Below, in pieces: positions 11,201-51,262 of a stretch of 64,000 bases of DNA. Source of the DNA: Marchantia polymorpha subsp. ruderalis. Lineage: Eukaryota > Streptophyta > Marchantiopsida > Marchantiales > Marchantiaceae. The notes below the pieces were generated by a model, which saw only the letters and a list, made by a program, of their open reading frames with translations, was not told where the DNA came from and ran no database searches. The translations under genes were made by a program, and so were the position numbers. Numbering within the stretch: the first letter of the stretch is position 1; each line of letters starts with the position of its first letter. The DNA is taken from positions 20,936,501 to 21,000,500 of the forward strand of contig AP031352.1 in NCBI GenBank assembly GCA_037833965.1, given 5' to 3'.

Positions 11201-12190
11201 TAGTTCCAGGCGTTTTGCCTGGGGTTCTTTCCCATCAGAAGTATAGATCAGGAACCCATTTCCTTTGCGTGTTTGTGTCCTTGAGTTCTGTCACCACGCA
11301 CGAGGAGTTACAACTTAGCGTTCCGCATTTTGTAGCTGAAGGCCTTCGGCCGAATGTTCAGAGCTAGTACATTGGTTAGAGACTTGAGTAGTTCGGATCT
11401 GCACCTGCGGGTGATTGCCGATGCTCAGAGCCAGTGACTAGTTAGATACTTGAACAGTTTCGCCCCTACACCTTCGAGTGTTTCTTTCTGATTGTACTCC
11501 TTGGGATTTTTCCCCTGAATGCCAAAGTGAAGTTTTGCTACTTCGTGTAAACCTTGGTTGTAAATTCAGGTCACGCTGCAGCAGGTGCCTTGAGGGTAAC
11601 CCCTGTAGTATTTCTGGGAATGACAAGTGCCTGAGAATTCAAACTCTTCAATAGACTGTTGTTGTGTTACTGGAATGTTTCACAGTGAGTCCTTCAGGGC
11701 GGACCTGTGTTCTCTGCGCGTTTTGTGAGTTGAGAGTGTTGTTCACCGCGTAGGAGTGACTTCGATCCGAAGTAGGCAGTCCAAACCGGGTTTCCTACAC
11801 TAGCAGCAAGCTAGTGGAAGTGTTGTAAAAGCCGGAGTTGGAAGTCACTGCCCGCAGCTTTGCCGAGTGTGCTCGTGAGAGACTTTCCCCCTGAAATCTT
11901 GAAGTAGAGGTCCTAACGGATCTCTGGGTTGTGTTTCTGTAGTTTCAGGTGTGTGTGTGTGTGTGTGTGTTACGCTGCACTGTGCGACCTCCGAGTGCGC
12001 TCCGAGTGGACACTTGCAGTATTTCTGGGAGTGACAGTTGCCTGAGAATTCAAACTCCTCAATAGTCTGTTAAAACGTGACACTTTGTACCCTGTGTGTT
12101 CCTCTGTCCCTGTGGGTTCGACCTTTCTACCACTATATTGCAGTTTTAGCCTTTAGTGGGTTATTACATAAGAAGCCGACAACTTCTTTT

Positions 12191-12207
12191 TGGCGCCGCT
12201 GCCGGGG
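12191..12207 (+). other. Primer binding site, tRNA-Asp type (Element A)
   Basis: TGGCGCCGCTGCCGGGG lies 22 bases inside the LTR end. It is complementary to the 3' end of plant tRNA-Asp apart from one position (GCT where the complement would be GTT). The same sequence and spacing occur in Element B. Plant Tat/Athila-type elements commonly use this type of primer site. Confidence 0.8.
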
Positions 12208-12254
12208 ACAGTTGCGTCAACACCGGGGTTTTTACGAGCAGCCATGCTCGGTGA

Positions 12255-15086
12255 ATGTCGACTGGGGCTGGCGGGAGCAATCTAAGTGCTAGGGCTGTCC
12301 GCAAGTTCCGACGAGATTAAGAGAAGGCCGTGGAAGAGACACGGCGTCAAAACAAGAAAACACCAAGAAGAGTACCTAAGCCTAGTTCGGCCGACATCCT
12401 TGGGGAACCTACCCCCGGCGACTCGGAACCAAACTTGGTGCTTACAGTTCTACTAGATATTCCTTGCACGGACCCGCCTAGTGAAGTAGAACCGACCGCC
12501 CGAGGACCGTCGACAGACACACTGATGGCGGACGGACAAGCCAATGTGCGGCTACCTCAGCCGATTACTAAACATTCCTACCCGAAGTACAAAGGGAGTG
12601 GGGATGACGACGATGCAGATTCATACATCAAGTTATTCGAGTCGGTGTCTATTGCCAATCGCGAGATCGCAGACGACGACCGACTAAGGATCTTTCCAAG
12701 CCTTCTGCGGAAGAAAGCGAGGAGTTGGTATAATCACGAGAGCATCGATCCGACTGGGTTGACAACATGGGCCCAGCTGAAGGAGAAGTTCCTTCGTCGC
12801 TTTCGCGAGCTCGGCTACGACAGCCGGGTTTTGACGAAGTTACGTAATTTGCAGCGAGAGAAGAAGGAGAGTCTGCGTGACTACACTGAGAGATTTCTGG
12901 ACCTCCTCGACAGAATACCGAAAACAGGACCAGGGTCCCCTTTCTCGGTACAACAAGCTGTGGATTGGTACGTGACCGGTTTAACTCGGGAGATGGAGAC
13001 TTTTTGCCGACGCAGCAAGTGCGACACTATTGAGGATGTGATTGCATCGGCAGAAGCCTTCGAAACTTCCACTCTCAACCGAAGAGGGAGAGAGAGACGG
13101 GAGTCGAAGGAGCGCAAACCGAAAGGAGGGCGAAGACGGCGTAGAGGTACAACTCCGTCATCGGAGGAATCGTCTTCGGACGAGAACCGTTCTTCATCCG
13201 AAGAAGAGGAAACCTCATCGTCGGAGGAGGAGAAGAAGAGGAAGAAGCATGGGTCAGCAAAGAAAAAGGGCATCCGACGAGTGACTACGGACAGAGCGCC
13301 GGGAGATATAGCTTCGAAGATGGAGACCCTGGTGAAGGACTTCGCCGATCTCAAGGTTCAAGTGGTAGGCGGGCATGATCGCAGAAAATCACCCGGGAGA
13401 GTGCGAGCGAACTTATGGTGTACTACGTGCGGGGCGGTGGGACATGCAAACACCGAGTGCCTTACCACCCGGCCGTCATATCCAGTCAACGCAGTAGAGT
13501 GGGCGCAACCGTACTATGGAGAGCACCCTCAGTACTATGGAGAGGCTAGCGAAGAGACAGCCTACGCCGTCCAGTCGGTGCCTACCCCTCCTGCAGTTTC
13601 AGCAATGCAAGTCCCACGATATATTCCGGTGGATCGGGCCACTACGGTACCTGTGAGGCGGAGAGCACCTCCAGGGACGTTTGACCCACCGCCACCGCGA
13701 GCTTGTTATAATTGCGGGGAAGTTGGGCACTTCTCACCGCAGTGTCCCCATCCAAAAAGGCAAAACGATTATGCTCCGACATGTAGTAATTGCAAGAAGG
13801 TCGGGCACACTGCGCCAGAGTGTGATCAGCCACCAGTCCCTCGGCCAGTGGTACGATTTGTGAACACTCCTGCCAAGGAGGACGTGCAAGTTAACCAGGT
13901 CGAAGTAGGTTCAGACGGGGATGGCGAAGACGAAGAATGGCCGGCTGAAGAGGTTATGTGCGCACAGGTCGAAACTCGTAGCTCCAAGAAATCCAAGGAG
14001 CAAGAGCGTGACACTCGCAAGCACGAACTGAGAACCGCCGACCGGACGGGAAAAGGAAAGGAGAAGACATCCAGCAAGTCCGACTCGCGACCTGCTCGGA
14101 AGTCTTCGGCTACGCGGGAGGCACCAACAGTGCGCCCCCAGACAGCAGTCGAGGACGAGCCAGTGCGCCTACTGAAACGGGACTATGCTCCAGATATCCG
14201 CAACGAGGTAACCAACCTGTTGAAGGAAGCGATCCGCACGCAAAAGGACCCACCGCGGCCAGACTTGACATCCTCCCTTGGGGCGAAGTTGGCAGCCACC
14301 GTGGAACCTCGCAGAGCGTCGCCGACCCCGGCGCCCCAACGCGCCCACTATGACTTGGTTGAAGATCTCGGGAGTCGAAAAGTGAACATTACGTTCAAGC
14401 AGCTCTTGGAGGATAATAAGACGTATCGGAGAATGTTGATGCTTTCGCTACGGCATCCGCGGAAGCCGCGCGCATCCACATCCTCTCAAGTATATCAAGT
14501 GGAGAGCGAAGACCAAGGGCCACCCGAGATCGATGTGGAGATAGCAGGATGTTGTGTACGCAGAGTGCCAATCGACTCTGGATCAGGAGTCAACATAATG
14601 ACGGAGGATACAGCGAGAGCCTTGGGGTTCAGTCAATACGAACCCTCGAAGCGTGTGTTGAGATTAGCGGATCAGACGCGGAGAATGCCTGCAGGTATGC
14701 TGCGCAATGTCAAGACAACCATCAGGGGTGCGGACTTTCGGTTGACGTATATCATCCTTCAGCCGATGATGAAGCAGGGCTATGACGTTCTGCTCGGGCG
14801 ACCATGGCTATATGGTGCACAAGTCAGATGTGACTGGCGAAGACATCGCCTTAAGTTTCCTCACCCTTCGGAACCGACCAAAACCATTACGGTGCCCTGG
14901 AATAGGGTCAGGCACGAAGGAGAGACCCCATCGACAAGTGCAGGTTACACATCGGGCGAGGACAGTGAGTCGACCGCGCGATCGGATTCCAGTGGTACCG
15001 AATCCGATTACTTCGTAGGATTCGTTGCCTGCTGTTCGGTGGAAGAAGAAGAAGAGACGGAAGCTATTCAGCCGGAAGACGAATAG
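12255..15086 (+). pseudogene. gag-pro: Gag-protease of Element A (nonsense near N terminus)
   Basis: Structural protein and aspartic protease of the element. Counting from ATG 12255: Gag capsid-like domain at about residues 119-271 (with KKARSWYNHES and LREKFLRRFREL-type helices), a Ser/Glu/Lys-rich stretch, three CCHC zinc knuckles starting near residues 389 (CTTCGAVGHANTEC), 484 and 510, and a protease with the catalytic PIDSGSG at Asp774 and a VLLGRPWLY flank. Codon 22 is TAA (12318-12320) where Element B has TCA, so translation from the conserved ATG would stop. No good ATG follows soon in frame. The ORF ends at UAG 15084-15086 and continues in frame into pol. Confidence 0.9.
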
Positions 15087-15092
15087 CAATTA
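15084..15092 (+). promoter_or_regulatory. Leaky-stop context UAG-CAA-UUA between gag-pro and pol (Element A)
   Basis: The gag-pro stop is TAG, followed in the same frame by CAA TTA and then open pol. UAG-CAR-YYA is the well-known readthrough context first described in tobamoviruses. Because gag-pro and pol share one frame with only this stop between them, readthrough, not frameshifting, is the simplest expression route. Element B has the same nine bases at 38558-38566. Confidence 0.8.
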
Positions 15093-17927
15093 ACTGTGGG
15101 ACTGGGAAGGAGTGAGACGAGTCACACTGAGGGCATTGTCGACCCTAGTGACTGTCATGAAGTACAACTCAGTCCCGGCAAATGCTTGAAGGTATCAAGC
15201 GCAGTGAGAGGAGACGAGCTAAGGAAAGTACAGGCGTTCCTTAGCCACTATGTCGACGTCTTCGCCTGGAAGATCGAAGACATGAAGGGGATACCCGCAC
15301 GATATGGGGAACACCGTATCGATTTACTGGACGACTCAGTACCCATACGACAGCGCCAGTATCGCCTCAACCCAAAGTACTCCTTGCTAGTGAAAGAGGA
15401 GATAGATAAGTACTTGAGCGCTGGTATTATTTATCCTGTGCTCAGCAGCGAGTGGGTGTCGCCGATTGTTATCGTACCCAAGAAGTTGACGGGTAAGATA
15501 CGAGTGTGTCAGGATTTCCGGAAGTTGAATGCAGCAACACGCAAGGATCATCACCCGTTACCATTCACGGATGCCATTCTAGACCATGTCGCAGGACATG
15601 AATGTTATAGCTTCCTGGATGGGTTCTCAGGTTACAATCAGGTGTCTATCCGTGAACAGGACAAGGATAAAACTACGTTCACAACCGACTGGGGAACTTA
15701 CGCATACCACAAGATGCCCTTCGGTCTGTGCAACGCGCCTGCCACCTTTCAACGGATGATGACCAATATCTTTCAGGAACAACTGAGGAAGTTCCTGGAG
15801 ATATTCATAGATGACTTCTGTGTCTTTGGGAAGCGGTCTGAACACCTAAGTCACTTGAAGCAGACCTTCGATAAATGTAGAGAGAGCAGTTTATCACTGC
15901 ATCCCGAGAAGTGCTTTTTCTTCATGACTAGTGGAATCTTGTTGGGTCATCGGGTCTCGGCAGAAGGCATTGCGGTGGACATCGAGAAGGTCAAGGTTAT
16001 ACTCGAGCTTGAGCCACCCACGAATCTAAGAGAGCTGCGAGCATTCCTGGGTCATGTGGGCTACTACCGAAGATTCATACACATGTATGCAATACTGGCG
16101 GCGGACCTGACCAAGTTGTTGAAGAAGGACGAGCCTTATGCTTGGGGTGCGAACCAGCAGACAGCATTTGAAGCTCTGAAAGCGAAACTCACGACTGCTC
16201 CCGTACTAAGGAGTCCAGACTGGAATCGACCATTCCATGTTTACGTTGACACTTCGGCATTCGCCATCGGTGTAGTACTGAGTCAAAAGGATGACAACAA
16301 AAAGGACTACCCGATCTACTTCGCGAGCCGACAGCTGTCTCTAGCAGAGCGGAAGTACACCACGACGGAGAGAGAAGCGTTGGGGATGGTGTACTCCTGT
16401 AAAAAGTTCCGTCACTACCTAATCTGTTACGAGTTTGTGTTCCATGTGGACCACTACGCATTGCAACACCTAGTCAAGAAAGCCGACCTATCCGGTCGAA
16501 TCGCCAGGTGGGTGTTGTTACTACAAGAGTTCACCTACACAGTCCAGACCAGGAAAGGGATGCACCACGAAAATGCGGATTACTTGTCCCGATTATGGAC
16601 CCAGCCGACAGAGGAGGAATTGGTGGACGATTTTCCAGATGAAGAGTTATTTCAGTTGTCTGCAGGACATGAGTCCCGCTATGCCGACCTGTATCGATAT
16701 CTGTTAACCCTCCAGTGCCCCGAGGGCATGGATTTGGAACAGCGAACTGTCTTTATTCATAAGGCAGGCCCGTATCAACTCCAGCAGGGGGTTTTGTTCA
16801 AGAAGATGGCGGATGAGCGCTTATGCAGATGCCTGGAGGAATCAGAAGTACCAAGAATAGTGAGTGCGATGCATACAGAGGAGGCGGGTGGACACTATGC
16901 CACCAGGAACACGGTCACAAAGATCCTAAACGCGGGATATTGGTGGCCGACCATGTTTAAGGATGTTCTCGATTACATCCGCAAGTGCGATAGTTGCCAG
17001 AGGACGGGGAGACCGACGCCTACAACACGCTGGCCTCTGACTCCCATCATGCCTCTAGCACCTTTCGAAAAGTGGGGTATTGACTTTGTAGGGCCGATAC
17101 AACCAGTGACTAGAAGTACACGAAGGCGCTACATTCTGGTAGCAACGGACTACGCCACCAAAATGGTAGAGGCCAGAGCCACCAGAAAGGATGATGCTGC
17201 CACAGTGGCAGCATTCTTGTTTGAGTCGATCATCACACGCTACGGATGTCCCTTAGAACTAGTCAGCGACCGGGGCACGCATTTTCTGAATCAGATCATC
17301 GAAGATCTGACACGGTATTTCCACATCAAGCACCGGAAGACTACTCCATACAATCCCAAGGCAAATGGACTGACGGAGAAGTCCAATGGTCTGCTGTGTA
17401 AAATACTACTCAAGGTCACGGTGAATCACGCTCACGACTGGGATACGAAGCTAGCAGCCGCTCTATGGGCGTACCGCACAGCTGAGAAGATCACGACCAA
17501 ACAGACACCATACTTTCTGGTGTATGGGCAACACCCGATCCTCCCAATCGAATTTGAAGTACCCACCCATCGAACGATGGATTTGCAGAGGATGGGCGCA
17601 GAGGAGAGTCAGCTCTACAGGTTACAGGAGGTCATGCTGCTGGATGAGCGGAGAAGAGACGCCGAAGATCGCACCAGGAAAATCCAGCTCCGCCGAAAGG
17701 AGAGATACGATAAAAAGATCAAACCGGTACTCCTGCAGGCGGGTGATTTGGCATTGCTCTACGACAGCAGGCATGCCAGATTCCCAGGCAAGCTGCACCT
17801 AAGGTGGATGGGACCTTACAGGGTTGTCGAAGTCTTCCCGAATGGGTCCATCCAACTTGCGGACCTGGCCGGCGATTTGTTAGGCACCCGAGTGAACGGG
17901 TGGCGGTTGAAGAAATACCACATGTGA
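15087..17927 (+). CDS. pol: Pol of Element A: reverse transcriptase, RNase H, integrase
   Basis: Copies element RNA into DNA and inserts it. Residues counted from the GTG at 15096: RT at about 95-270 with VCQDFRKLN, FLDGFSGYNQ, KMPFGLCNAPATFQ and the catalytic FIDD (237-240, where YxDD is usual); RNase H at about 365-480 (VYVDTSAFAIG, TTTEREALGMV, VDHYALQHL); integrase with an HHCC zinc finger (H...H...CDSC, about 590-635) and a DD35E core at Asp663, Asp725 and Glu761. The C terminus NGSIQLADL...NGWRLKKYH has no chromodomain. There is no ATG near the start, so it should be made only as a readthrough fusion with Gag-protease. The frame is open throughout and nearly identical to Element B. Confidence 0.95.
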   Translation, partial: QLTVGLGRSETSHTEGIVDPSDCHEVQLSPGKCLKVSSAVRGDELRKVQAFLSHYVDVFAWKIEDMKGIPARYGEHRIDLLDDSVPIRQRQYRLNPKYSLLVKEEIDKYLSAGIIYPVLSSEWVSPIVIVPKKLTGKIRVCQDFRKLNAATRKDHHPLPFTDAILDHVAGHECYSFLDGFSGYNQVSIREQDKDKTTFTTDWGTYAYHKMPFGLCNAPATFQRMMTNIFQEQLRKFLEIFIDDFCVFGKRSEHLSHLKQTFDKCRESSLSLHPEKCFFFMTSGILLGHRVSAEGIAVDIEKVKVILELEPPTNLRELRAFLGHVGYYRRFIHMYAILAADLTKLLKKDEPYAWGANQQTAFEALKAKLTTAPVLRSPDWNRPFHVYVDTSAFAIGVVLSQKDDNKKDYPIYFASRQLSLAERKYTTTEREALGMVYSCKKFRHYLICYEFVFHVDHYALQHLVKKADLSGRIARWVLLLQEFTYTVQTRKGMHHENADYLSRLWTQPTEEELVDDFPDEELFQLSAGHESRYADLYRYLLTLQCPEGMDLEQRTVFIHKAGPYQLQQGVLFKKMADERLCRCLEESEVPRIVSAMHTEEAGGHYATRNTVTKILNAGYWWPTMFKDVLDYIRKCDSCQRTGRPTPTTRWPLTPIMPLAPFEKWGIDFVGPIQPVTRSTRRRYILVATDYATKMVEARATRKDDAATVAAFLFESIITRYGCPLELVSDRGTHFLNQIIEDLTRYFHIKHRKTTPYNPKANGLTEKSNGLLCKILLKVTVNHAHDWDTKLAAALWAYRTAEKITTKQTPYFLVYGQHPILPIEFEVPTHRTMDLQRMGAEESQLYRLQEVMLLDERRRDAEDRTRKIQLRRKERYDKKIKPVLLQAGDLALLYDSRHARFPGKLHLRWMGPYRVVEVFPNGSIQLADLAGDLLGTRVNGWRLKKYHM

Positions 17928-17964
17928 GTGTTCGCGTGGGCGCTCACAATTGAGGAGGGGGGCA
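17928..17964 (+). other. Conserved 3' segment and polypurine tract (Element A)
   Basis: Between the pol stop and the 3' LTR: a short hairpin-capable stretch (GTGAGTG ... CGCTCAC) followed by TGAGGAGGGGGGCA, the plus-strand primer site abutting the LTR at 17965. The same ~36 bases recur in Elements B and C. Confidence 0.8.
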
Positions 17965-19211
17965 TGTGGTACCCCACTTTTGGCAATTTTGAGAAAATTA
18001 AAACATTTTTTGGAAAACTGTACCCTGGCAGCATTGTAAATAGCCTTAGGTACATCAAAACAGAGTGAATCCGGAAGATCGCGGGGATTCTCGAGGGATC
18101 TTGTAGAATCTGGGATTTGGGGTGCCGCAGCAAGCACAGGCACCACCCTCCCTGCGAGCTCCGCAGTTAGGATCTCTACGGCGCAAGGCGCAAAACCCGC
18201 CTTCGGAGGTTGCGGCCGCGGCTGTAGGGAAACCCCCGTAATTAGGTAAACCCTCGGGCGCCTTGACCAAGTTAGGGTCCGGTTGGAAAGAGCTCGACGC
18301 GCTGATTCTAACGAGCCCAAGAGCGCTTGGAACGGACGAGGACTTAGGGAGTTATCGCTACTGGAAGAAACGGAGGCGGTCGCCTACGGCGGAAGGAGTT
18401 CGCCACCAGCGCGAATTCCGCCTACGCGGAAGGGGGATTCAAGTTTTGTCCTATGCGCGGACGAAGGCGTTCGCCTGTGCACAGGCGAAGTAGGGTTAGG
18501 GAAGGCACGAAGTCCGCCTACGCACAGGCGTTCGCCTGTGCACAGGCACTTCGGCGTCGGCGGGAAATCCGCCTTGGGCCCTAGAAATGCGCCTTGTGAG
18601 GTAGAAAGTGTACGGCGCCTTCCGCGCCAGCGCAGCGCAGCGTACGTCGGAAGAGCCGCCAGAGTAATCCAATAGGTACGGACCGTGCGGACAGCACGGG
18701 TGGATGCGCTCTTGGACGGACGGAGTTGCGGCGGCGGAAGCGCCGACGGAGAGACAAGGAACGGACAGACTGGACGGAGACGGCTGACCACGGTCAACGC
18801 CTTCCGCGCCAGCGCAGCGCCGCGGACGGAGTTCGCCTGCGCACAGGCGAACGCCTGTGCACAGGAGGATGTTCAAGTTCCGCGCCGGCGGAGAATCCGC
18901 CGAGGCCCCTGCCTGCGCACAGGCAGGAGTTGAATTTTTGTCCGACATGCGGACGCACGCGTCAAGGCAGAAGGAGATTGGCCGAAGGGCGGTACGAACA
19001 AGTGTACCGCGCAAGGCGGAAAACTCGCCTTCGGCGCTACGCCCCCATGTCCGCAGGGTGACACGCTCGCGGAGTTCAAATCCGCCAATTCGAGCGTGAG
19101 AGTTTAATCGACGACGGCGGAGCGTGAAGCCGCGCGTGAGAGCGAAGACCGTTCCAGCGTACAGCCGGCGCGGCCATCAAGTGAGACGTTCTTCACGACC
19201 AAGAGCCGACC

Positions 19212-22200
19212 ATGACCTTCGACCGGGCGGCGGAGAGCGTCCCATTCTTGAATTCGCGATTCCAATCTCTTGTGCGCGCTGCGCGCATCCATCTGCTGGC
19301 TGCGGACCATTCTCGTCGTCGTCGCACAGGAGATTTCTTGTTGATTGAGGGAGAAGTGAGTGCGCGTGATTTGGAATTGAGAGCGATTAGAGTTTGCCGA
19401 GAGAGAAAGAAACGCGGACAGTGCGGAAGTAGAATGAGCGGGCGAGCGAACCCCAGGAACGCAATGACGAGACCGAGCAGATTGCGGATGGTGCCACTTC
19501 GCCTGCCGCAGAACGGGCTGCGCGCTTTCGAGGAGCGCTTAATAGCAAGAAAGCTCGATTTCTTGCTATGGGGATGGAATTACATCTGCGCGAATATGGT
19601 GCGCGAGTGGCTAGAGCCACAGGGACCACCCTCGCGCGGATTGCGTCCGCATGTTGACCGGTGGACAGTCCAAGATTGGGCGCAGGCGTTGGGAAGATGT
19701 GCTGGCATGCCAGGGCATCTCCTTTTCGACAGTGAGAGCATCAAGGTGACCAAGCAAGAAGAGGCGCAATTTGTGGAGCTGTTCAAGACCGGGAGGTCTA
19801 CCAAGAATGGGTACAGGACCCGTGATTACAAAGATCGATTTCGCCGGACTTTGTCCGCGGCGCTGATGCAATTACTGCAGCCGCACCGCGCCTGCTACAT
19901 CACATTGTGGCAGGTCTCTTTTGTGGAGTGCGTCATCGAGGGAACTCCAATTCACTGGGCGAGCATCCTGCACAGGGTGATGCGACAGCACGCGTTTGAG
20001 GAGAAGGGGGGAACTCTAAACCATCTTTCTCCTTTCCTCATCAATTTTTATCGACAGCGGAATTGTTTGACAGCGGCGGAGCTTGAACATTTTCCGCCAT
20101 TGTCCATCGACCATCCCGGGAAGTATGTGCGGGAGAACGAGGTCGACACTGATGCGGAGGAGTCACCGACTTCTACCCCATCAAGACGGAGGGATGAAGG
20201 GAGACACACTCCTGCAGCGCGAGTGCCGCGGAAGCGGCGATGGAGGGAAGAGTCCGAAGAGGAGCAGCATCAAGAACCCTCTGCTCCCATTCGACCGCGG
20301 CCGCTGTGCGAGCCATACAGCCGGCCGAAGCAGAAGGCACGCAGACTGGTGTTGCCAGCTGACAGTGCAGACACGGCGACGATTGCGACGGAGATAGGAA
20401 GTGCGTCGCCAGAGAGGCGAGAGGAAGCGCGGACGACCGCAGGAGCGACGGGCCACGCTGCAACCTCGTCGGGAGAGAGGCCGCCTACGGGCCAAGGGCC
20501 TCCGGAGTTACCACGCGCGATGCGGACAGATGTTCCGTTTGCGCACAGGCAAACCTCCGCGGACGGACGAGCCTCCGCGGACCGGCGAACACAAGTGGAC
20601 GTGGATCTACGCTTACGCGTGGGAAGGAGCAGTCCGCCTGTGCACAGGTCGCCTGTGAACAGAACACCTCCACACGTGCCGCCTGTGCACAGGCAAGAAT
20701 CACCCCCGTTCCAACGTAGGAAGGGGAAGGAGCCGGCGGAAGAACCGCCTACGAGACACCGGCCCTCGGGGCCAGACCCTCCGGCGCACCACGCGCCGCA
20801 ATTCGCGCCTTCGGCGCCAGGGCCTTCGAGCCGAGGGGATACGAGCAGAGAGCGTGCGGAGGCCGCACCGTCGGCGGAAAGTCCGCCGATAGATGCGCCT
20901 TCGGCGGTAGGGCCTATAGGCCAAGGAACATCGGGCGTGCGGCCCCCGGCCATGTCGCCTTCGGCGATAGATGTCCGCGGCGCTACGCCTGCGGCGGACA
21001 AGGCGCCGGCACATGCGCCTGCGCACGGGCCGGGCACAGCCCCCACGGACCGATCAAGGGAGCAGCAGACGGAGGAGCGGAGTGACTGTCAGCGGGATGA
21101 AATCTCGATGCGCGATGCGCAATCCAACCCCGCGCAGCCACCCTCCGCTCAATCACCTCCGGCGACGGACGACAGAGGCAGAGAGGATGCGGTAGACCAT
21201 CAACAAGCGAGAGACGGGGATGCCGCACGGAAACATTCGCCTTCCGCCTTAGACATTTTGGCGACGAGCAGCGAGGCTGCAGCCGTGCCTTCGCAGGCAG
21301 CACACGTCGAGGACGTGCAGCCCCACTCAGGGCAGTCGCCGACGCAATCAATGGCGACTGAAATTCTCCACTCGGATGATGACGACGGAGGCTCCACGGA
21401 AGAAATGTCAGGAGCAGAAGACACCGAGGAGGAGGAGGAGGAAATTGTTGGAGCGCCGGCGGCGGCGCTCTCTGAGCAGGTGATTCCGTTGCTGCGGTAC
21501 TTGGATCGCAAGGTCGATAAATACGCCGACCCACTCCAGCCGGGATCTTACATCGAGTTAGTGCGCAAGAGGACTCGCACTAAAGTCCACACCAGCAAGC
21601 TATTAGCTAGAGTGGACCAGGAGTTGAGGGACTTGAAGGAGAAGCATGAGTGCTTGTGGGGACAGTACAAGCTTAATCAGAAATTCTACAAGCACTCCGA
21701 GAAGATGAAGGATGAGAAACTGGGCGAGCTCACCAAGGAGCAGGTGAAGGTCAAGGAGGCACTCAACTCTGAGCAGGCCCAGAATCGGATTTTGTCAGAG
21801 GAGCTCGTGCGACAGACGCGGTTGTTGGAACAATGTCAGCTCGCACGGCAGGCGGATGAAGAATTAATCCGCAGGTTACAGTCAAAGTGTGGCGAATTGA
21901 GGGCGCAACGTGCTGAAGCCGAATCGCAATTAGTGACGATTGAAGAGGATCGCAGGAAGGAGGCGGATCGCACGAAGGTGGAGACGGCGAGGCGAGTCAC
22001 CCACTGTCTCAAGGGCTACGCCCACTGGGAAGTGAAGGCGCAGGAGAAACTCACACTGCGTGAGTTTGAATTGCGCGCAGCCGGGTTGTTGTCAGGCGAC
22101 AGTAGGAGTCGGCGGAAGGTAGCGAAGAAGCTCGAGGCCTTTCTGTCGAAGGCACAGGATACCATGTCTGCCCTCGAGGGGGAGGTGTCCGCGGCGTTGC

Positions 22201-22331
22201 AGCGGTTGGGACTGCGTAGTCGAGCGGAAGAGTGGCAGGGTAGGGAGTTAGTGCGCGGCAGTCGGCCGCGCAGGAGACGTAGTACAGGTTCCGCGGAGTG
22301 TAGTGTAGCGTGGTTCCGTGCAGGCGTGTAG
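19212..22331 (+). CDS. LTR-encoded ~1,039-residue protein, intact (Element A 3' LTR)
   Basis: Function unknown. Residues 85-310 form a conserved, probably globular domain (LRLPQNGLRAFEERL, LDFLLWGWN, GYRTRDYKDRFRR, GGTLNHLSPFLINFYRQ). It faintly resembles the plant-transposon-type domain seen in accessory ORFs of plant gypsy elements; this is a by-eye impression only. Residues ~311-680 are Pro/Arg/Ser-rich with VHRSP repeats, then an acidic DDDDGG...EEEEEE patch, then a coiled coil from ~797 to ~1010, ending with RPRRRRS and WFRAGV. ATG 19212 has a fair context (GACCATGA), but Met85 (19464) is an alternative start because it matches the only ATG in Element C's homologue. It lies wholly in U3, ending 36 bases before the TATA box. 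No zinc knuckle, RT or transmembrane segment is visible. Confidence 0.85.
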   Translation: MTFDRAAESVPFLNSRFQSLVRAARIHLLAADHSRRRRTGDFLLIEGEVSARDLELRAIRVCRERKKRGQCGSRMSGRANPRNAMTRPSRLRMVPLRLPQNGLRAFEERLIARKLDFLLWGWNYICANMVREWLEPQGPPSRGLRPHVDRWTVQDWAQALGRCAGMPGHLLFDSESIKVTKQEEAQFVELFKTGRSTKNGYRTRDYKDRFRRTLSAALMQLLQPHRACYITLWQVSFVECVIEGTPIHWASILHRVMRQHAFEEKGGTLNHLSPFLINFYRQRNCLTAAELEHFPPLSIDHPGKYVRENEVDTDAEESPTSTPSRRRDEGRHTPAARVPRKRRWREESEEEQHQEPSAPIRPRPLCEPYSRPKQKARRLVLPADSADTATIATEIGSASPERREEARTTAGATGHAATSSGERPPTGQGPPELPRAMRTDVPFAHRQTSADGRASADRRTQVDVDLRLRVGRSSPPVHRSPVNRTPPHVPPVHRQESPPFQRRKGKEPAEEPPTRHRPSGPDPPAHHAPQFAPSAPGPSSRGDTSRERAEAAPSAESPPIDAPSAVGPIGQGTSGVRPPAMSPSAIDVRGATPAADKAPAHAPAHGPGTAPTDRSREQQTEERSDCQRDEISMRDAQSNPAQPPSAQSPPATDDRGREDAVDHQQARDGDAARKHSPSALDILATSSEAAAVPSQAAHVEDVQPHSGQSPTQSMATEILHSDDDDGGSTEEMSGAEDTEEEEEEIVGAPAAALSEQVIPLLRYLDRKVDKYADPLQPGSYIELVRKRTRTKVHTSKLLARVDQELRDLKEKHECLWGQYKLNQKFYKHSEKMKDEKLGELTKEQVKVKEALNSEQAQNRILSEELVRQTRLLEQCQLARQADEELIRRLQSKCGELRAQRAEAESQLVTIEEDRRKEADRTKVETARRVTHCLKGYAHWEVKAQEKLTLREFELRAAGLLSGDSRSRRKVAKKLEAFLSKAQDTMSALEGEVSAALQRLGLRSRAEEWQGRELVRGSRPRRRRSTGSAECSVAWFRAGV

Positions 22332-22367
22332 CGTAGTGCAGTGTAGTGCTAGGTAGGACTTAGAAGG

Positions 22368-22396
22368 TATAAAATAGTTCCAGGCGTTTTGCCTGG
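22368..22396 (+). promoter_or_regulatory. TATA box plus start-proximal hairpin (Element A 3' LTR)
   Basis: TATAAAA at 22368-22374 is followed at 22380-22396 by CCAGGC-GTTTT-GCCTGG, a perfect 6-bp stem. The expected transcription start would fall in or just after the stem. The pair is kept in the solo LTRs and in Element B's 3' LTR. Confidence 0.55.
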
Positions 22397-22775
22397 GGTT
22401 CTTTCCCATCAGAAGTATAGATCAGGAACCCATTTCCTTTGCGTGTTTGTGTCCTTGAGTTCTGTCACCACGCACGAGGAGTTACAACTTAGCGTTCCGC
22501 ATTTTGTAGCTGAAGGCCTTCGGCCGAATGTTCAGAGCTAGTACATTGGTTAGAGACTTGAGTAGTTCGGATCTGCACCTGCGGGTGATTGCCGATGCTC
22601 AGAGCCAGTGACTAGTTAGATACTTGAACAGTTTCGCCCCTACACCTTCGAGTGTTTCTTTCTGATTGTACTCCTTGGGATTTTTCCCTTGAATGCCAAA
22701 GTGAAGTTTTGCTACTTCGTGTAAACCTTGGTTGTAAATTCAGGTCACGCTGCAGCAGGTGCCTTGAGGGTAACC

Positions 22776-23250
22776 CCTGTAGTATTTCTGGGAATGACAA
22801 GTGCCTGAGAATTCAAACTCTTCAATAGACTGTTGTTGTGTTACTGGAATGTTTCACAGTGAGTCCTTCAGGGCGGACCTGTGTTCTCTGCGCGTTTTGT
22901 GAGTTGAGAGTGTTGTTCACCGCGTAGGAGTGACTTCGATCCGAAGTAGGCAGTCCAAACCGGGTTTCCTACACTAGCAGCAAGCTAGTGGAAGTGTTGT
23001 AAAAGCCGGAGTTGGAAGTCACTGCCCGCAGCTTTGCCGAGTGTGCTCGTGAGAGACTTTCCCCCTGAAATCTTGAAGTAGAGGTCCTAACGGATCTCTG
23101 GGTTGTGTTTCTGTAGTTTCAGGTGTGTGTGTGTGTGTGTGTGTGTGTTACGCTGCACTGTGCGACCTCCGAGTGCGCTCCGAGTGGACACTTGCAGTAT
23201 TTCTGGGAGTGACAGTTGCCTGAGAATTCAAACTCATCAATAGTCTGTTA
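22776..23250 (+). repeat. Two diverged direct repeats in LTR R/U5 region
   Basis: GTATTTCTGGGAATGACAAG at about 22780 and GTATTTCTGGGAGTGACAGT at about 23194 both lead into TGCCTGAGAATTCAAACTC and CAATAG(A/T)CTGTT. The upstream flanks also correspond loosely (TTTCCCC-TGAA, TTCAGG, ACGCTGCA). This suggests an old tandem duplication of about 410 bp inside the LTR. The same pair appears in every LTR copy. Confidence 0.6.
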
Positions 23251-23346
23251 AAACGTGACACTTTGTACCCTGTGTGTTCCTCTGTCCCTGTGGGTTCGAC
23301 CTTTCTACCACTATATTGCAGTTTTAGCCTTTAGTGGGTTATTACA

Positions 23347-23668
23347 AGAGGCAGATCGCACGAAGGAAGAGATGGCAATGCGAGTCATCCACTGTCTCAA
23401 GGGCTACGCCCACAGGGAAGTGGCGGCGCAGGAGAAACTCACACTGCGTGAGTTAGAGCTTCGTGCAGCCGGGTTGTTGACGGGTGACAGTCGGAGTCGG
23501 CGGCGAGTAGCGAAGAAGCTGGATTCCTTTCTATCGAAGGCGCAAGACACCATGGCCACCCTTGAGACGGAGGTTTCCGCGGTGTTGCGGCGATTGAGAC
23601 TGCGCAGTCGAGCTAAGGAATGGCAGGGTAGGGAGTTAGTGCGCGGCAGTACGTCGCGCAGGAGGTGA
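23347..23668 (+). pseudogene. 3' end of LTR ORF in the split host LTR
   Basis: Encodes EADRTKEEMAMRVIHCLKGYAHREVAAQEKL-type sequence, the C-terminal coiled coil of the LTR protein, up to a stop at 23666-23668. Substitutions such as KEEMAM for KVETAR and a shorter C terminus (ends TSRRR, without the WFRAGV tail) mark an older subfamily. It is cut from its 5' part by Element A. Confidence 0.8.
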
Positions 23669-24747
23669 AGCACAGGTTCCGCGGAGTGTAGTGTAGCGTG
23701 GTTCCGTGCAGGCGCGTAGCGGAGTGCAGTGTAGTGTTAGTTAGCACTTAGAAGGTATAAAGTAGTTCAAGGCGTCTTGCCTTGGGATCTTTCCCAATTT
23801 TGGAAGTGCAGATCAAGAACTCATTTTCTCTGCGTGTTTGTGTCCTTAGTTTTGTCACCACGCGAGAGGAGCTACACCTTAGCGATCCGCATTTTGTAGC
23901 TGAAGGCCTTCGGCTGAATGTTCAGAGCTAGTACATTGGTTAGAGACTTGAGTAGTTCGGATCTACACCTGCGGGTGATTGCCGATGCTCAGAGCCAGTG
24001 ACGAGTTAGATACTTGAACAGTTTCCCCCTTACACCTTCGAGTGACTGTTTCTGATTGAACTCCTTCGGGATTTTTCCCCTGAATGCCAAAGTGAAGTTT
24101 TGCTACTTCGTGTAAGCCTTGATTGTAAATTCAGGTTACGCTGCAGCAGGTGCCTTCAGGGTAACCCCTGCAGTATTTTTGGGAATGACAAGTGCCTAAG
24201 AATTCAAACTCTTCAATAGACTGTTATGGTGTGTTACTGGATCGTTTCTCCGTGGAGTCCTTCTGTGCGGACCTGTGTTCTCTGCGCGTTTTGTGAGTTG
24301 AGTGTGTTGTTCACCGCGTGTGAGTGACTTCAATCCGAAGTAGGAAGTCCAACCCGGGTTCCCTACGCTAGCAGAAAGCTAGTGGAAGGGTTGTAAAAGC
24401 CGGAGTTGGGAGTCACTACCCGCAGCTTTGCTGAGTACTCGTGAGAGACTTTCCCCCTGAAATCTTAAGTAGAGGTCCTAACCGATCTCTGGGTTGTGTT
24501 TCTATAGTTTCAGGTGTGTGTGTGTGTGTGTGTGTGTGTGTTGAGTGAACTACGCTGCACTGTGCGACCTCCGAGTGAGCTCCGAGTGAACACTTGCAGT
24601 ATTTCTGGGAGTGACATTCGCCTGAGAATTCAAACTCCTCAATAGTCTGTTAAATGTGTCACTTTGTACCTTGTGTGTTCCTCTGTCCCTGTAGGTTTGA
24701 CCTTTCTACCACTATATTGCAGTTTTAGCCTTTAGTGGGTTATTACA
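23347..24747 (+). repeat. Right half of the LTR split by Element A
   Basis: Resumes the LTR interrupted at 1796: coiled-coil end of the LTR ORF (23347-23668), TATAAAG at 23756, R/U5-like sequence with a GT run (about 24511-24540), and the terminal TTATTACA at 24747. It is clearly more diverged from the other LTRs, as expected for the older host. Beyond 24747 the sequence changes abruptly to AT-rich DNA, so this is the outer edge of the nest. Confidence 0.88.
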
Positions 24748-25767
24748 AGTTATCATGTTAAAGATCCGTGTGCTTGGTAGATAAAGAGTAAGGGTGTTTG
24801 TTAATAGCGATATGTCAACAATCCGTATGTTTGTTATGTACATGATGTTATCAATACATTAAGAGTGGAGAGTAAGACAAGAAGGAAAATTTATCTTCAT
24901 GTATGCATTAAAAATATCTATATAAGGAAGAGAAAGAACATTATAGATATCTGTCATCTTTGAAGTTTATCTTTCATCTTTGAGTAAGATCTCTTCTTAA
25001 GCCCTAGTGTTACAATGTGTTCAAAGATATCAAAGAGATCTCTTTTCTTGAATGGGTCATTCTTCATGTGATGTGTTAATGCATAGAAATTGGTAGGGAT
25101 TGTTGATTTGCATATAGACAGGGGGAGAAAGATAACATTGTGATTTTATAGATATGAAGTTGTGTGTTATGAAAATTGAATATTCAAATGAGTGATCTCC
25201 AATCTATTTGATCTTTATCTTTGTTTAATGAAAAAACATCATTTCTAGATGTATATTGGGGATGTACAATGTTCGTATTGGGGCTTTCCATATTAGTGAA
25301 GGAATCTACTTTTGTAATTCAATGGTTCAAGTGATAGAGTCAAGAATGTCATTAATACTTTAAATAATTACTTATGGATAGACTTAATATTGTATCACTG
25401 CATTATGTACTAAATGTTTGAAATATTTGAATGGAAAATCATTCGTGGCGGTTTGATATAAACATGTATGGAGAGATCAGAATAATATATCATCAGAATA
25501 GAATGTGGAAATATTTCCTTGTGAAAATTTATGAAGAGAAGTTTTATAGTAATGATATGAAATCATCCACATCTTTTGTGACTTTTTTGTGGAGAGGTTG
25601 AATAATTATCATAATTATGTTGTATGAAGGTGAGTTAAAAAAATTAATGGAGGTATCATTTGATACGAGTGATGTTCTCAATGCGATCATGGCTGAAATA
25701 AAAGAGTTGAAAAAAGCTATAGAATATTGACACAAAAGGCAAAAAGTAATGAAAGATAAAATCTTTG
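24748..25767. other. AT-rich host DNA, possible remains of a Ty1/copia 5' end
   Basis: No open gene. TGTTAAAG at 24756, a TATATAAGG near 24918 and a TATCAAAGAGATC near 25029 resemble a decayed copia LTR with its Met-tRNA primer site (TGGTATCAGAGC type). CAGGGGGAG near 25118 is a purine-rich stretch. The copia RT fossil at 53085-53870 lies on the other side of Element B, so both may belong to one old copia element. Weak evidence. Confidence 0.35.
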
Positions 25768-26140
25768 TGTGGTACCCCACTTTTGGTAATTTTGAGGAAA
25801 TTAAAACATTTTTGGAAAAAACTGTACCCTGGCAGCATTGTAAATAGCCTTCGGTACATCAAAACAGAGTGAATCCGGAAGATCGCGGGGATTCTCGAGG
25901 GATCTTGTAGAATCTAGGATTTGGGGTGCAGCAGTAAGGACAGGCACCACCCTCCCTGCGAGCTCTGCAGTTAGGATCCCTGCGACGCAAGTCGCAAAAC
26001 CCGCCTTCGGAGGTTGCGTCCGCGGCGGTAGGGAAATCCTCCATAATTAGGTTAACCCTCGGGCGCCTTGACTGAGTTAGGGTCTCGTTGGAAAGAGCTC
26101 GACGCACTGATTCCAACGAGTCCAAGAACGCTTGGAACGG

Positions 26141-29100
26141 TGTGGTACCCCACTTTTGGCAATTTTGAGGAAATTAAAACATTTTTGGAAAACTGTACCC
26201 TGGCAGCATTGTAAATAGCCTTCGGTACATCAAAACGGAGTGAATCCGGAAGATCGCGGGGATTCTCGAGGGATCTTGTAGAATCTGGGATTTGGGGTGC
26301 AGCAGTAAGGACAGGCACCACTCTCCCTGCGAGCTCTGCAGTTAGGACCCCTACGTCGCAAGGCGCAAAACCCGCCTTCGGAGGTTGCGTCCGCGGCGGT
26401 AGGGAAATCCTCCATAATCAGGTCAACCCTCGGGCGCCTTGACCAAGTTGGGGTCCCGTTGGAAAGAGCTCGACGCACTGATTCCAACGAGTCCAAGAAC
26501 GCTTGGAACGGATGAGGACTTAGGGAGTTATCACTATTGGAAGAAACGGAGGCGGTCGCCTACGGCGGAAAGAGTTCGCCACCGGCGCGAATTCCGCCTA
26601 CGCGGAAGGGGGAATCAAGTTTTGTCCTATGCGCGGACGAAGGCGTTCGCCTGTGCACAAGCGAAGTAGGGTTAGGGGAGGCGCGAAGTCCGCCTACGCA
26701 CAGGCGCTCGCCTGTGCACAGGCACTTCGGCGTCGGCGGAAAATCCGCCTTGGGCCCTAGAAATGCGCCTTGTGAGGTAGAAAGTGTACGGCGCCTTCCG
26801 CGCCAGCGCAGCGCCGCGTACGGCGGAAGAGCCGCCAGAGTAATCAAATCGGTACGGACTATGCGGACGGGAAGGGTGGATGCGCTCTTGGACGGACGGA
26901 GTTGCGGCGGCGGAAGCGCCGACGAAGAGACAAGGAACGGACAGACTGGACGGAGACGGCTGACCACGGTCAACGCCTTCCGCGCCAGCGCAGCGCCGCG
27001 CACGGAATTCGCCTGCGCACAGGCGAACGCCTTTGCTCAGGAGGATGTTCAAGTTCCGCGCCGGCGGAGAATCCGCCGAGGCTCCTGCCTGCGCACAGGC
27101 AGGAGTTGAACTTTTGTCCGACAGGCGGACACACGCGTCAAGGCAGAGGGGGATTGGCCGAGGGGCGGTACGAACAAGTGTACCGCGCAAGGCGGAAAAC
27201 TCGCCTTCGGCGCTACGCCCGCATGTCCGCGGGGTAATACGCTCGCGGAGTTCAAATCCGCCAATTCGAGCGTGAGAGTTTAATCGACGACGGCGGAGCG
27301 TGAAGCCGCGCGTGAGAGCGAAGACCGTTCCAGCGTACAGCCGGCGCGGCCATCAAGTGAGACGTTCTTCACGAGCAGGAGCCGACCATGACCTTCGACC
27401 GGGCGGCGGAGAACGTCCCATTCTTGAATTCGCGATTCCAATCTCTTGTGCGCGCTGCGCGCATCCATCTGCTGGCTGCGGAACATTCTCGACGTCGTCG
27501 CACAGGAGATTTCTTGTTGATTGAGGGAGAAGTGAATGCGCGTGATTTGGAATTGAGGGCGATTAGAGTTTGCCGAGAGAGAAAGAAGCGCGGGCAGTGC
27601 GGAAGTAGAATGAGCGGGCGAGCGAACCCCAGGAACGCAATGACGAGACCGAGCAGATTGCGGATGGTGCCACTTCGCCTACCACAGAACGGGCTGCGCG
27701 CTTTCGAGGAGCGCTTAATAGCAAGAAAGCTCGATTTCTTGCTATGGGGATGGAACTACATCTGTGCGAATATGGTGCGCGAGTGGCTAGAGCCACAGGG
27801 ACCACCCTCGCGCGGATTGCGTCCGCATGTTGATCGGTGGACAGTCCAAGATTGGGCGCAGGCGTTGGGAAGATGTGCTGGCATGCCAGGGCATCTCCTT
27901 TTCGACAGTGAGAGCATCAAGGTGACCAAGCAGGAAGAGGCGCAATTTGTGGAGCTGTTCAAGACCGGGAGGTCTACCAAGAATGGGTACAGGACCCGTG
28001 ATTACAAGGATCGATTTCGCCGGACTTTGTCCGCGGCGCTGATGCAATTACTGCAGCCGCACCGCGCCTGCTACATCACATTGTGGCAGGTCTCTTTTGT
28101 GGAGTGCGTCATCGAGGGAACTCCAATTCACTGGGCGAGCATCCTGCACAGGGTGATGCCGAGCACGCGTTTGAGGAGAAGGGGGGAACTCTAAACCATC
28201 TCTCTCCTTTCCTCATCAATTTTTATCGACAGCGGAATTGTTTGACAGCGGCGGAGCTTGAACATTTTCCGCCATTGTCCATCGACCATCCCGGGAAGTA
28301 TGTGCGGGAGAATGAGGTCGACACGGATGCGGAGGAGTCACCGACTTCTACCCCATCAAGGCGGAGGGACGAAGGGAGACACACTCCTGCAGCACGAGTG
28401 CCGCGGAAGCGGCGATGGAGGGAAGAGTCTGAAGAGGAGCAGCATCAAGAACCCTCTGCTCCCATTCGGCCGCGGCCGCTGTGCGAGCCATACAGCCGGC
28501 CGAAGCAGAAGGCACGCAGACTGGTGTTACCAGCCGACAGTGCGGACACGGCGACGATTGCGACGGAGAAAGGAAGTGCGTCGCCAGAGAAGCATGAGGA
28601 AGCGCGGACGACCGCAGGAGCAACGGGCCCCGCTGCAACCTCGACGGGAGAGAGGCCGCCTACGGGCCAAGGGCCTCCGGAGTTACCACGTGCGATGCGG
28701 ACAGATGTTCCGTTTGCGCACAGACGAGCCTCCGCGGACAGGCGTTCACAAGTGGACGTGGATCTACGCTTACGCGTGGGAAGGAGCAGTCCGCCTGTGC
28801 ACAGGCGCTCACCTTTGCACAGGTCGCCTGTGCACAGGACACCTCCACACGTGCCGCCTGTGCACAGGCAAGAATCACCCCCGTTCCAACGTAGGAAGGG
28901 GAAGGAGCCGGCGGAAGAACCGCCTACGAGACACCGGCCCTCGGGGCCAGACCCTCCGGCGCACCACGCGCCGCAATTTGCGCCTTCGGCGCCAGGGCCT
29001 TCGAGCCGAGGAGATACGAGCAGGGAGCGTGCGGAGGCCGCACCATCGGCGGAAAGTCCGCCGATAGTTGCGCCTTTGGCGGTAGGGCCTATAGGCCAAG

Positions 29101-31515
29101 GGACATCGGCGAGCGGCCCCCGGCCATGTCGCCTTCGGCGATGGATGTCCGCGGCGCTACGTCTGCGGCGGACAAGGCGCCGGCAATTGCGCCTGCGCAC
29201 GGGCCGGGCACAGCCCCCACGGACCGATCAAGGGATCAGCAACAGACGGAGGAGCGGAGTGACTGTCCGCGGGATGAAATTTCGATGCGCGATGCGCAAT
29301 CAAACCCCGCGCAGCCACCCTCCGCTCGATCGCCTTCGGCGGCGGGCAACGGCGGCAGAGAGGACGCGGTAGACAACCAACAAGCGAGCGACGGGGATGC
29401 CGCACGGGTACATTCGCCTTCCGCCTTAGACATTTTGGCGACGAGCAGCGAGGCTGCAGCCGTGCCTTCGCAGGCAGCACACGTCGACAACGTGCAGCCC
29501 CACTCGGGGCAGTCGCCGACGCAATCAATGGCGACTGAAATTCTCCACTCGGATGATGACGACGGGGGCTCCACGGAAGAAATGTCAGGAGCAGAAGACA
29601 CCGAGGAAGAGGAGGAGGAAATTGTTGGAGCGCCGGCGGCGGCGCTCTCTGAGCAGGTGATTCCGTTGCTGAGGTACTTGGATCGCAAGGTCGATAAATA
29701 CGCCGACCCACTCCAGCCGGGATCTTACATCGAGTTAGTGCGCAGGCGGACTCGCACTAAAGTCCACACCAGCAAGCTGTTAGCTAGAGTGGACCAGGAG
29801 TTGAGGGAATTGAAGGAGAAGCATGCATGCTTGTGGGGTCAGTACAAACTTAATCAGAAATTCTACAAGCACTCCGAGAAGATGAAGGATGAGAAACTGG
29901 ACGAGCTCACCAAGGAGCAGGTGAAGGTCAAGGAAGCACTCATTTCTGAGCAGGCCCAGAATCGGATTTTGTCAGAGGAGCTCGTGCGACAGACGCGGTT
30001 GTTGGAACAATGTCAGCTCGCACGGCAGGCGGATGAAGAGTTAGTCCGCAGGTTACAGTCAGAGTGTGGCGAATTGAGAGCGCAACGTGCTGAAGCCGAA
30101 TCGCAATTAGTGATAATTGAAGAGGATCGCAGGAAGGAGGCGGATCGCACGAAGGTGGAGACGGCGAGGCGAGTCGCCCACTGTCTCAAGGGCTACGCCC
30201 ACTGGGAAGTGAAGGCGCAGGAGAAACTCACACTGCGTGAGTTTGAATTGCGCGCAGCCGGGTTGTTGTCAGGCGACAGTAGGAGTCGGCGGAAGGTAGC
30301 AAAGAAGCTCGATGCCTTTCTGTCGAAGGCACATGATACCATGTCCGCCCTCGAAGTGGAGGTGTCCGCGGCGTTGCAGCGTTTGGGACTGCGCAGTCGA
30401 GCGGAAGATTGGCAGGGTAGGGAGTTAGTGCGCGGCAGTCGGCCGCGCAGGAGACGTAGTACAGGTTCCGCGGAGTGTAGTGTAGCGTGGTTCCGTGCAG
30501 GCGTGTAGCGTAGTGCAGTGTAGTGTTAGGTAGGACTTAGAAGGTATAAAATAGTTCCAGGCGTTTTGCCTGGGGTTCTTTCCCATCAGAAGTGCAGATC
30601 AGGAAAGCATTTCCTTTGCGTGTTTGTGTCCTTGAGTTCTGTCACCACGCACGAGGAGTTACAACTTAGCGTTCCGCATTTTGTAGCTGAAGGCCTTCGG
30701 CCGAATGTTCAGAGCTAGTCCATTGGTTAGAGACTTGAGTAGTTCGGATCTGCACCTGCGGGTGACTGCCGATGCTCAGAGCCAGTGACTAGTTAGATAC
30801 TTGAACAGTTTCGCCCCTACACCTTCGAGTGTTTCTTTCTGATTGTACTCCCTTGGGATTTTTCCCCTGAATGCCAAAGTGAAGTTTTGCTACTTCGTGT
30901 AAGCCTTGGTTGTAAATTCAGGTTACGCTGCAGCAGGTGCTTTGAGGGTAACCCCTGTAGTATTTCTGGGAATGACAAGTGCCTGAGAATTCAAACTCTT
31001 CAATAGACTGTTGTTGTGTTACTGGAATGTTTCACAGTGAGTCCTTCAGTGCGGACCTGTGTTCTCTGCGCGTTTTGTGAGTTGAGAGTGTTGTTCACCG
31101 CGTAGGAGTGACTTCGATCCGAAGTAGGCAGTCCAAACCGGGTTTCCTACACTAGCAGCAAGCTAGTGGAAGTGTTGTAAAAGCCGGAGTTGGAAGTCAC
31201 TGCCCGCAGCTTTGCCGAGTGTGCTCGCGAGAGACTTTCCCCCTGAAATCTTGAAGTAGAGGTCCTAACGGATCTCTGGGTTGTATTTCTGTAGTTTCAG
31301 GTGTGTGTGTGTGTGTGTTACGCTGCACTGTGCGACCTCCGAGTGCGCTCCGAGTGGACACTTGCAGTATTTCTGGGAGTGACAGTCGCCTGAGAATTCA
31401 AACTCATCAATAGTCTGTTAAACGTGACACTTTGTACCCTGTGTGTTCCTCTGTCCCTGTGGGTTCGACCTTTCTACCACTATATTGCAGTTTTAGCCTT
31501 TAGTGGGTTATTACA
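26141..31515 (+). mobile_element. Solo LTR, direct orientation, nested in Element B 5' LTR
   Basis: TGTGGTACC at 26141 to TTATTACA at 31515 (5,375 bp), flanked by AACGG at 26136-26140 and 31516-31520. The host LTR reads continuously across the site (GCTTGGAACGG then ATGAGGACTT). It keeps a TATA box at 30545-30551 and hairpin. Its LTR ORF is frameshifted twice. Confidence 0.95.
27388..30508 (+). pseudogene. LTR-encoded ORF in solo LTR, two frameshifts
   Basis: Collinear with the ~1,040-residue LTR protein but in three consecutive frames. A one-base loss at about 28158 (GATGCCGAGC where others read GATGCGACAGC) hits the end of the N-terminal domain. A second one-base loss at about 29108 (CATCGGCGAGC against CATCGGGCGTGC) hits the Pro-rich middle. 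The rest, through the coiled coil to WFRAGV, is open. Amino-acid choices such as LRELKEKHACLWG and AEDWQG place it nearer to Element B's LTRs than to A's. Confidence 0.88.
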
Positions 31516-51226: not shown

Positions 51227-51262
51227 CGTAGTGCAGTGTAGTGCTAGGTAGGACTTAGAAGG

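Follow-up and report, generated by a model that had tools for sequence, protein, structure and literature searches.

Long terminal repeats (LTRs) of retrotransposons are commonly annotated as non-coding. In mouse mammary tumour virus (MMTV), a vertebrate retrovirus, the sag gene lies in U3 and is for that reason copied into both LTRs; it encodes a membrane-anchored superantigen and is much smaller than the plant reading frame described here. A U3 promoter, P2, has been reported for the sag open reading frame (ORF) in the accessible part of one account (PMC9412291). We analyzed 64,000 nucleotides of the genome of Marchantia polymorpha subsp. ruderalis (GenBank GCA_037833965.1, contig AP031352.1, positions 20,936,501 to 21,000,500 of the forward strand; hereafter the window), in which the LTR of a Ty3/gypsy retrotransposon contains a 1039-aa ORF. 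This ORF is intact in several copies, is under purifying selection in two LTR families, has a homologue in a third, and is present at high copy number. MMTV sag is its nearest parallel, both being sense ORFs wholly within U3. Compared with sag, the plant protein has no hydrophobic segment and no Pfam match, and the two are likened by gene placement, not by sequence comparison.

In plant elements, additional ORFs are placed in the internal region, mostly between pol and the 3′ LTR, by the available text of one source (PMC7264820), and the accessible part of the Retand study likewise concerns the region between pol and the 3′ LTR (PMC11963269). In the REXdb survey, extra ORFs are classed by whether they lie 5′ or 3′ of the polyprotein region, and LTRs of up to ~5 kb are noted; its accessible text is silent on extra ORFs within LTRs, so that an unremarked case may exist there (PMC6317226). 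Like the additional ORFs (aORF/eORF) of Athila, SIRE, Grande, RIRE2 and Retand, as far as the available texts describe them (PMC7264820, PMC6317226, PMC11963269), the Marchantia ORF is large, lineage-specific and located beside gag-pol, and it passes the length threshold by which such ORFs are recognized, 250 codons or more outside gag-pol. By contrast, it lies outside the internal region to which the accessible definition assigns them (PMC7264820), and its product lacks the Pfam domains of the named aORF/eORF proteins. Retrosat2, a rice gypsy element with LTRs of >3.2 kb, carries ORF0 upstream of gag-pol (ORF1), with a mean Ka of 0.26 for ORF0 and 0.08 for ORF1; it shares the gypsy type, long LTRs and an extra ORF with the Marchantia element, and the available text does not state that ORF0 is LTR-borne (PMC3485330). 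The literature searched, which did not extend to most subscription journals, yielded no plant ORF within an LTR. An earlier remark, made from the DNA letters alone (the original prediction), had likewise named no described plant example of this size. Accessory genes as such are already known; what is new here is the place, size, selection and copy number.

A sense reading frame in the U3 of a Ty3/gypsy LTR

The original prediction had placed a gene of ~1,040 residues inside the LTR of a gypsy family, in sense orientation and upstream of a TATA box, within limits fixed by matching termini, polypurine tract (PPT), primer-binding site (PBS) and target-site duplications (TSDs). Our analysis bears this out. 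The ORF is open from the ATG at 19212 to the TAG at 22331 on the plus strand and lies entirely within the LTR, occupying nt 1248-4367 of its 5,382 nt (17965-23346, plus strand). The LTR begins with TGTGGTA, ends with TTATTACA, and is directly preceded by the PPT GAGGAGGGGGGCA (17952-17964, plus strand). The PBS TGGCGCCGCTGCCGGGGA (12191-12208, plus strand) begins 22 nt past the end of the 5′ LTR, and 18 nt, the added CCA included, pair with the 3′ end of tRNA-Asp; 29 places in the genome match the complementary tRNA 3′ end, and the three that were scanned are all tRNA-Asp(GTC) genes. Comparison of the window with itself revealed five LTR-bearing insertions of this family, hereafter F1, each with TG..CA ends and a 5-bp TSD (AGAGG, CTTTG, AACGG, CGGAC and CGGAC). 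A short LTR running only from the TATA box to TTATTACA, which would have refuted the original prediction, was ruled out: the boundaries of the full 5.38-kb LTR match the TSD and the PPT.

The TATA box TATAAAATAG (22368-22377, plus strand; LTR nt 4404) lies 36 nt past the ORF stop, and RNA would start ~30 nt further on. Because termini, PPT, PBS and TSDs agree and the TATA box is downstream of the ORF, the LTR limits hold and the ORF falls in U3, the limit of which is itself set from the TATA box. Genomic RNA is expected to start just past this box, which places the ORF at the 3′ end of the RNA, with pol and the PPT ahead of it. U3 sequence at the RNA 3′ end is carried into both LTRs by reverse transcription. 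The order of coding domains (protease, reverse transcriptase (RT), RNase H, integrase), together with flanking LTRs, PBS, PPT and TSD, identifies the host as a Ty3/gypsy LTR retrotransposon, as had been proposed. No chromodomain, the mark of the chromovirus branch, was detected by hmmscan of the two ORFs covering RT to integrase (RT-IN) at E up to 1.

Seven near-complete LTR copies with the ORF are present in the window. The frame is intact in three of them (19212-22331, plus strand; 43174-46311, minus strand; 48104-51226, plus strand) and lesioned in four, exactly the tally given in the original prediction. The broken copies carry a deletion, a nested LTR and a stop; a single stop; two frame-breaking deletions; and loss of the start together with a stop, respectively. 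The 1039-aa product can be divided into an N-terminal extension (residues 1-84), the most conserved domain (85-310), a low-complexity linker (311-745) and a charged, proline-poor C-terminal part (746-1039). The linker is rich in P, S and R, an acidic stretch is present, and the charge-rich C-terminal part is nearly devoid of proline, a composition from which it is read as a putative coiled coil.

Purifying selection and homologues in other LTR families

To measure selection we compared the seven window copies, broken ones included, in 21 non-independent pairs. In the 14 pairs that joined different insertions and reached a dS of 0.06, the ratio of nonsynonymous to synonymous rates (dN/dS) was 0.25-0.36, well below the value near 1 that the original prediction had named as contrary to its proposal. 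The two LTRs of one element are identical at the time of insertion. Differences between the paired LTRs numbered 9 nonsynonymous versus 3 synonymous (dN/dS 0.99) in one element and 6 versus 4 (0.49) in the other, without codon-position bias. An excess of changes at third codon positions was found in all five between-insertion pairs tested (p values: c-d, 1.1e-9; c-g, 5.1e-10; d-g, 0.0005; c-f, 0.0075; c-b, 0.012). Of the neutral expectations computed, the most lenient assumed 65% nonsynonymous changes and a strong CpG bias; even relative to this one, nonsynonymous changes were deficient in pairs c-d (p = 1.6e-5), c-g (p = 1.4e-6), d-g (p = 0.009) and c-b (p = 0.017). Insertions and deletions were multiples of 3 in 6/8 cases within the ORF, compared with 3/13 in the leader upstream and 2/8 after the ORF; in this count two pairs of close-lying indels may each represent one event.

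The window contains two F1 elements with internal regions (elements 1 and 2, described below), between which dS was 0.122 for the ORF, 0.128 for gag-protease (gag-pro) and 0.118 for RT-IN. Since the ORF value is near the other two, the ORF has evolved on their transposing lineage; the corresponding dN/dS values were 0.27, 0.16 and 0.07.

A 3′ LTR from a second, diverged family, F2, also lies in the window (60035-63056, minus strand). Its shortened ORF, with the homologous part at 60432-61715, is 47% identical to the F1 ORF over 391 aligned positions. Elsewhere the F2 ORF is intact at ~851 aa in the same LTR position and is full length in 21 of the 29 best-match loci; two F2 LTRs at C5:20.41-20.42 Mb measure 4,876 and 4,877 nt by their coordinates. 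The F2 ORF starts at the counterpart of F1 residue 85, its TATA box lies 33 nt past the stop, and the N- and C-terminal domains are common to both families. This protein-level homology between F1 and F2 persists at near-saturated dS. A third family, F3 (loci L047 and L054), shows two stretches of 47% and 68% identity to F1 and, in the N-terminal part, 59% identity to F2; its LTR is known up to the TATA motif beyond the ORF, and its homologue shares the F1/F2 domains though the frame is broken.

F3 came to light in a sample of PPT-LTR junctions chosen irrespective of the ORF, namely the first ten listed, all on contig C1 and all exact matches. The ORF start was in place in 8/10; in L046 a deletion extends to about residue 214, and L051 showed no ORF match within the first 1,517 nt of its LTR. 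L051 (C1, ~2.494 Mb) is F2-like over its first 888 nt only and diverged thereafter, and may represent an insertion, a deletion or an ORF-less family. Diverged F1-like copies among the junction loci comprise L044/L053, L052/L055 and L046/L056. All four LTRs of L053-L056 show ORF homology through the C-terminus, followed, as in F2, by the same TATA motif directly 3′ of the ORF, and all four ORFs are broken.

Region-wise dN/dS within families was computed from intact ORFs only (10 F1 and 21 F2 sequences), leaving out the 8/29 partial F2 loci, L001 and L009 as window duplicates, and window copies a, b, d and e. Residues 85-310 were the tightest: dN/dS was 0.033 when the three intact copies of the window were compared, lower than for gag-pro or RT-IN at similar dS, and stood at 0.075 in F1 (45 pairs) and 0.055 in F2 (210 pairs). 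Residues 311-745 gave 0.36 within F1. The family loci are the best protein-search matches, 44 of 13,320 candidates having been scored for F1 (40 of these best 44 are stop-free) and 88 of 10,694 for F2. Such best-match sampling favours conserved copies, and the argument is therefore carried by the window-only dN/dS. We conclude that the ORF is under purifying selection within F1 and F2. The observation behind the original prediction is thereby confirmed and strengthened, and its interpretation is supported.

Host elements, nested insertions and copies across the genome

Element 1 (1797-23346, plus strand) is flanked by the TSD AGAGG at 1792-1796 and 23347-23351. Its 5′ LTR, delimited by self-comparison, is split into 1797-4522, which holds a broken portion of the ORF, and 9872-12168 (both plus strand) by a nested solo LTR (4523-9871, minus strand; TSD CGGAC) whose ORF copy has one premature stop. 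The gag-pro ORF (12330-15086, plus strand, as the listed frame with a provisional start codon) is followed in the same frame by RT-IN (15096-17927, plus strand), the PPT and the TG..CA-ended 3′ LTR, which shares ~99.6% identity with the split 5′ LTR in the aligned blocks. The U3 leader of the 3′ LTR spans 17965-19211 (plus strand).

Element 2 (25768-52242, plus strand; TSD CTTTG) has a 5′ LTR at 25768-26140 and 31516-35639 (plus strand), with an ORF copy lacking its start and carrying one stop. The intervening solo LTR (26141-31515, plus strand; TSD AACGG) bears the copy with two frame-breaking deletions. The internal region (35640-41438, plus strand) comprises gag-pro, from 35627 (listed frame, start provisional) to 38560, and RT-IN (38570-41401), both on the plus strand. 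The 3′ LTR (41439-42160, then 47558-52242, plus strand) contains the intact ORF at 48104-51226 and is interrupted by a solo LTR (42161-47557, minus strand; TSD CGGAC) with the intact ORF at 43174-46311.

Each of the three solo LTRs had inserted into another F1 LTR, with AACGG or CGGAC as its target (26136-26140, 4518-4522 and 42156-42160), and the target at 26136-26140 adjoins a conserved leader block described below. Element 1 is itself inserted in an older LTR of this type, with 83-89% identity (1592-1786 and 23348-24749), and the ORF remnant of that older LTR gave a dN/dS of 0.27-0.33 over 372 nt against the seven copies. In both elements gag-pro and RT-IN lie in one frame interrupted by just one UAG codon, with CAA UUA directly after it (15084-15095 and 38558-38569), which we take to be a readthrough context of the tobamovirus type; a genome-wide count allowing at most 1 mismatch gave 766 similar junctions. 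The 22 nt between LTR end and PBS (12169-12190) contain AAGAAG..CTTCTT and could form a short hairpin. The same spacer is found in element 2, and F2 has one change that would preserve a G-U pair.

Across the 241-Mb genome, stretches coding without mismatch for the octapeptide RTRDYKDR numbered 3,808, LTR ends 6,462 (up to 2 mismatches) and PPT-LTR junctions 1,233 (up to 3 mismatches); reversed control patterns gave no match. These counts, like that of the UAG junctions, differ in the mismatches allowed and include fragments, so that only a rough comparison is possible. Elements with a PPT-LTR junction can account for no more than 2 x 1,233 = 2,466 of the 6,462 LTR ends. Many LTRs therefore look solo or fragmentary. 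Matches to the protein recur at spacings of ~11.2 kb for F1 and 10.67 kb for F2 (C5:11013987-11050731, C5:20407909-20430689 and C2:31345306-31378889), consistent with head-to-tail elements sharing LTRs. On C1, at ~2.2-3.25 Mb, matches repeat at offsets near 342, 366, 393 and 406 kb, which points to putative large segmental duplications; C1 is the smallest contig and possibly a sex chromosome. The genome also has one match to the LEAFY family (PF01698), which points to a plant.

Possible roles of the LTR protein

The family, structure, viral and prokaryote databases searched returned no relative for the protein. By Pfam hmmscan the whole protein had no match at E up to 1, nor at E up to 10 did its N-terminal domain or the fragment from F2; a hit of the C-terminal part to Inj_translocase (E 0.03-0.05) was far below cut-off and was treated as noise. 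PDB gave no match, either by sequence or with a profile of the N-terminal domain, PHROGs gave none, and NCBIfam gave only sub-threshold matches to the C-terminal part. No relative was confirmed among IMG/VR viral contigs or GTDB prokaryote contigs, in a search reaching close relatives only. The models PF03078, PF10536, PF04195 and PF20167 (Athila ORF1, plant mobile domain, Transposase_28 and Transposase_32) did not match the protein. A genome search with PF20167 gave no match, and neither did the control genomes.

We read the product as an element-encoded nuclear accessory protein with a probable regulatory role. The ORF is best explained as a U3-borne accessory gene that belongs to a Ty3/gypsy lineage and is kept by selection on that lineage as it transposes; to the reading that it encodes a nuclear regulator or anti-silencing factor we give a probability of about 45%. 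A separate message would start in the ~1.2-kb U3 leader, or arise by splicing of genomic RNA, and would end at the polyadenylation site of the LTR itself. The lack of a membrane segment and the basic cluster PRKR[RK]W, common to the F1 and F2 proteins, suggest that the protein would be nuclear. It may self-associate through the putative C-terminal coiled coil while the conserved N-terminal domain contacts its target, and it would act in trans on LTR chromatin or on element RNA or DNA, favouring expression or mobility of the family. A leader block at LTR nt ~315-365, conserved across F1, F2 and F3 (29/40 columns invariant in four sequences), is a candidate control element. A splice acceptor noticed by eye at the start of the F2 LTR was dropped, being absent from F1 and F3.

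The model for such an activity comes from VANDAL, a DNA transposon. VANC, encoded by VANDAL in Arabidopsis, is described in the accessible part of its report as a transposon-encoded anti-silencing factor acting on non-coding DNA of its family (PMC5735166). The likeness proposed here would lie in the mode of action only and involves no sequence comparison. No array of binding motifs common to the families was found here.

Several observations weigh against the regulator reading. Neither Pfam hmmscan nor NCBIfam detected a DNA-binding or chromatin domain, and the F1 leader lacks a TATA-like motif. The palindrome CCTGTGCACAGG is repeated in the F1 leader and absent from that of F2 (compared without the first 19 nt of the F2 leader and with the F1 leader extended to codon 84), and was rejected as a shared binding site. 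Constraint is also uneven: the five low-divergence pairs of different insertions span dN/dS 0.27-0.51, the nonsynonymous deficit is non-significant for pair c-f (p = 0.12), the extension 1-84 has a dN/dS of 0.37 within F1, and the C-terminal part is weakly constrained in F2 (0.50, compared with 0.19 in F1).

We nevertheless favour a nuclear regulator or anti-silencing factor ahead of a structural or replication cofactor, which appears rather unlikely. Such a cofactor would be translated from the 3′ portion of genomic RNA, or from a spliced version of it, and would join Gag particles or chaperone RNA and cDNA. The disordered, charged linker and helix-like C-terminal part of the protein would suit that task, as would the evolution of the ORF on one lineage with gag-pol, yet Pfam hmmscan found no gag domain, whether zinc knuckle, capsid or another, and placement in U3 brings no obvious packaging advantage. 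It is less likely still that the protein is a self-limiting factor damping transposition of the family as its dosage grows with each insertion and solo LTR. Feedback of this kind would come with high copy number, but selection on a transposing lineage should favour loss of an inhibitor, and diverged families have nonetheless kept the gene. An env-like or movement protein, the counterpart of the sense ORFs after pol in Athila and SIRE shifted into the LTR, would fit the same order on genomic RNA, downstream of pol on the sense strand. We consider it improbable: no transmembrane segment was found in either protein (Kyte-Doolittle 19-window maximum 1.14 in F1 and 1.12 in F2), and ATHILA was unmatched in hmmscan, with nothing above cut-off in the genome, where a PF03078 profile search gave one match at E 0.5. 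Finally, a non-coding ORF open by chance, for which the GC content (58% in L001) and an overlapping antisense ORF of 258 aa (20270-21046) might speak, is ruled out by the codon-position bias, the low dN/dS, the mostly in-frame indels and the homology of F1 and F2 proteins, and only a hidden constraint mimicking the frame could rescue it.

A message that begins in the U3 leader, crosses the ORF and ends at the LTR polyadenylation site would make each intact solo LTR a gene copy. That the whole LTR is a complete gene, and that solo LTRs keep making a trans-acting protein serving the family, is a possibility we hold as doubtful. Were it true, solo-LTR recombination, normally the death of an element, would become a growing genome-wide supply of regulator, of up to thousands of copies. 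An LTR gene of ~1,000 codons recasts the solo LTR as possibly a gene, beyond a promoter relic; it would bear on transposon annotation and on how elements counter silencing, and would give plants a counterpart of the U3 genes known from animal retroviruses.

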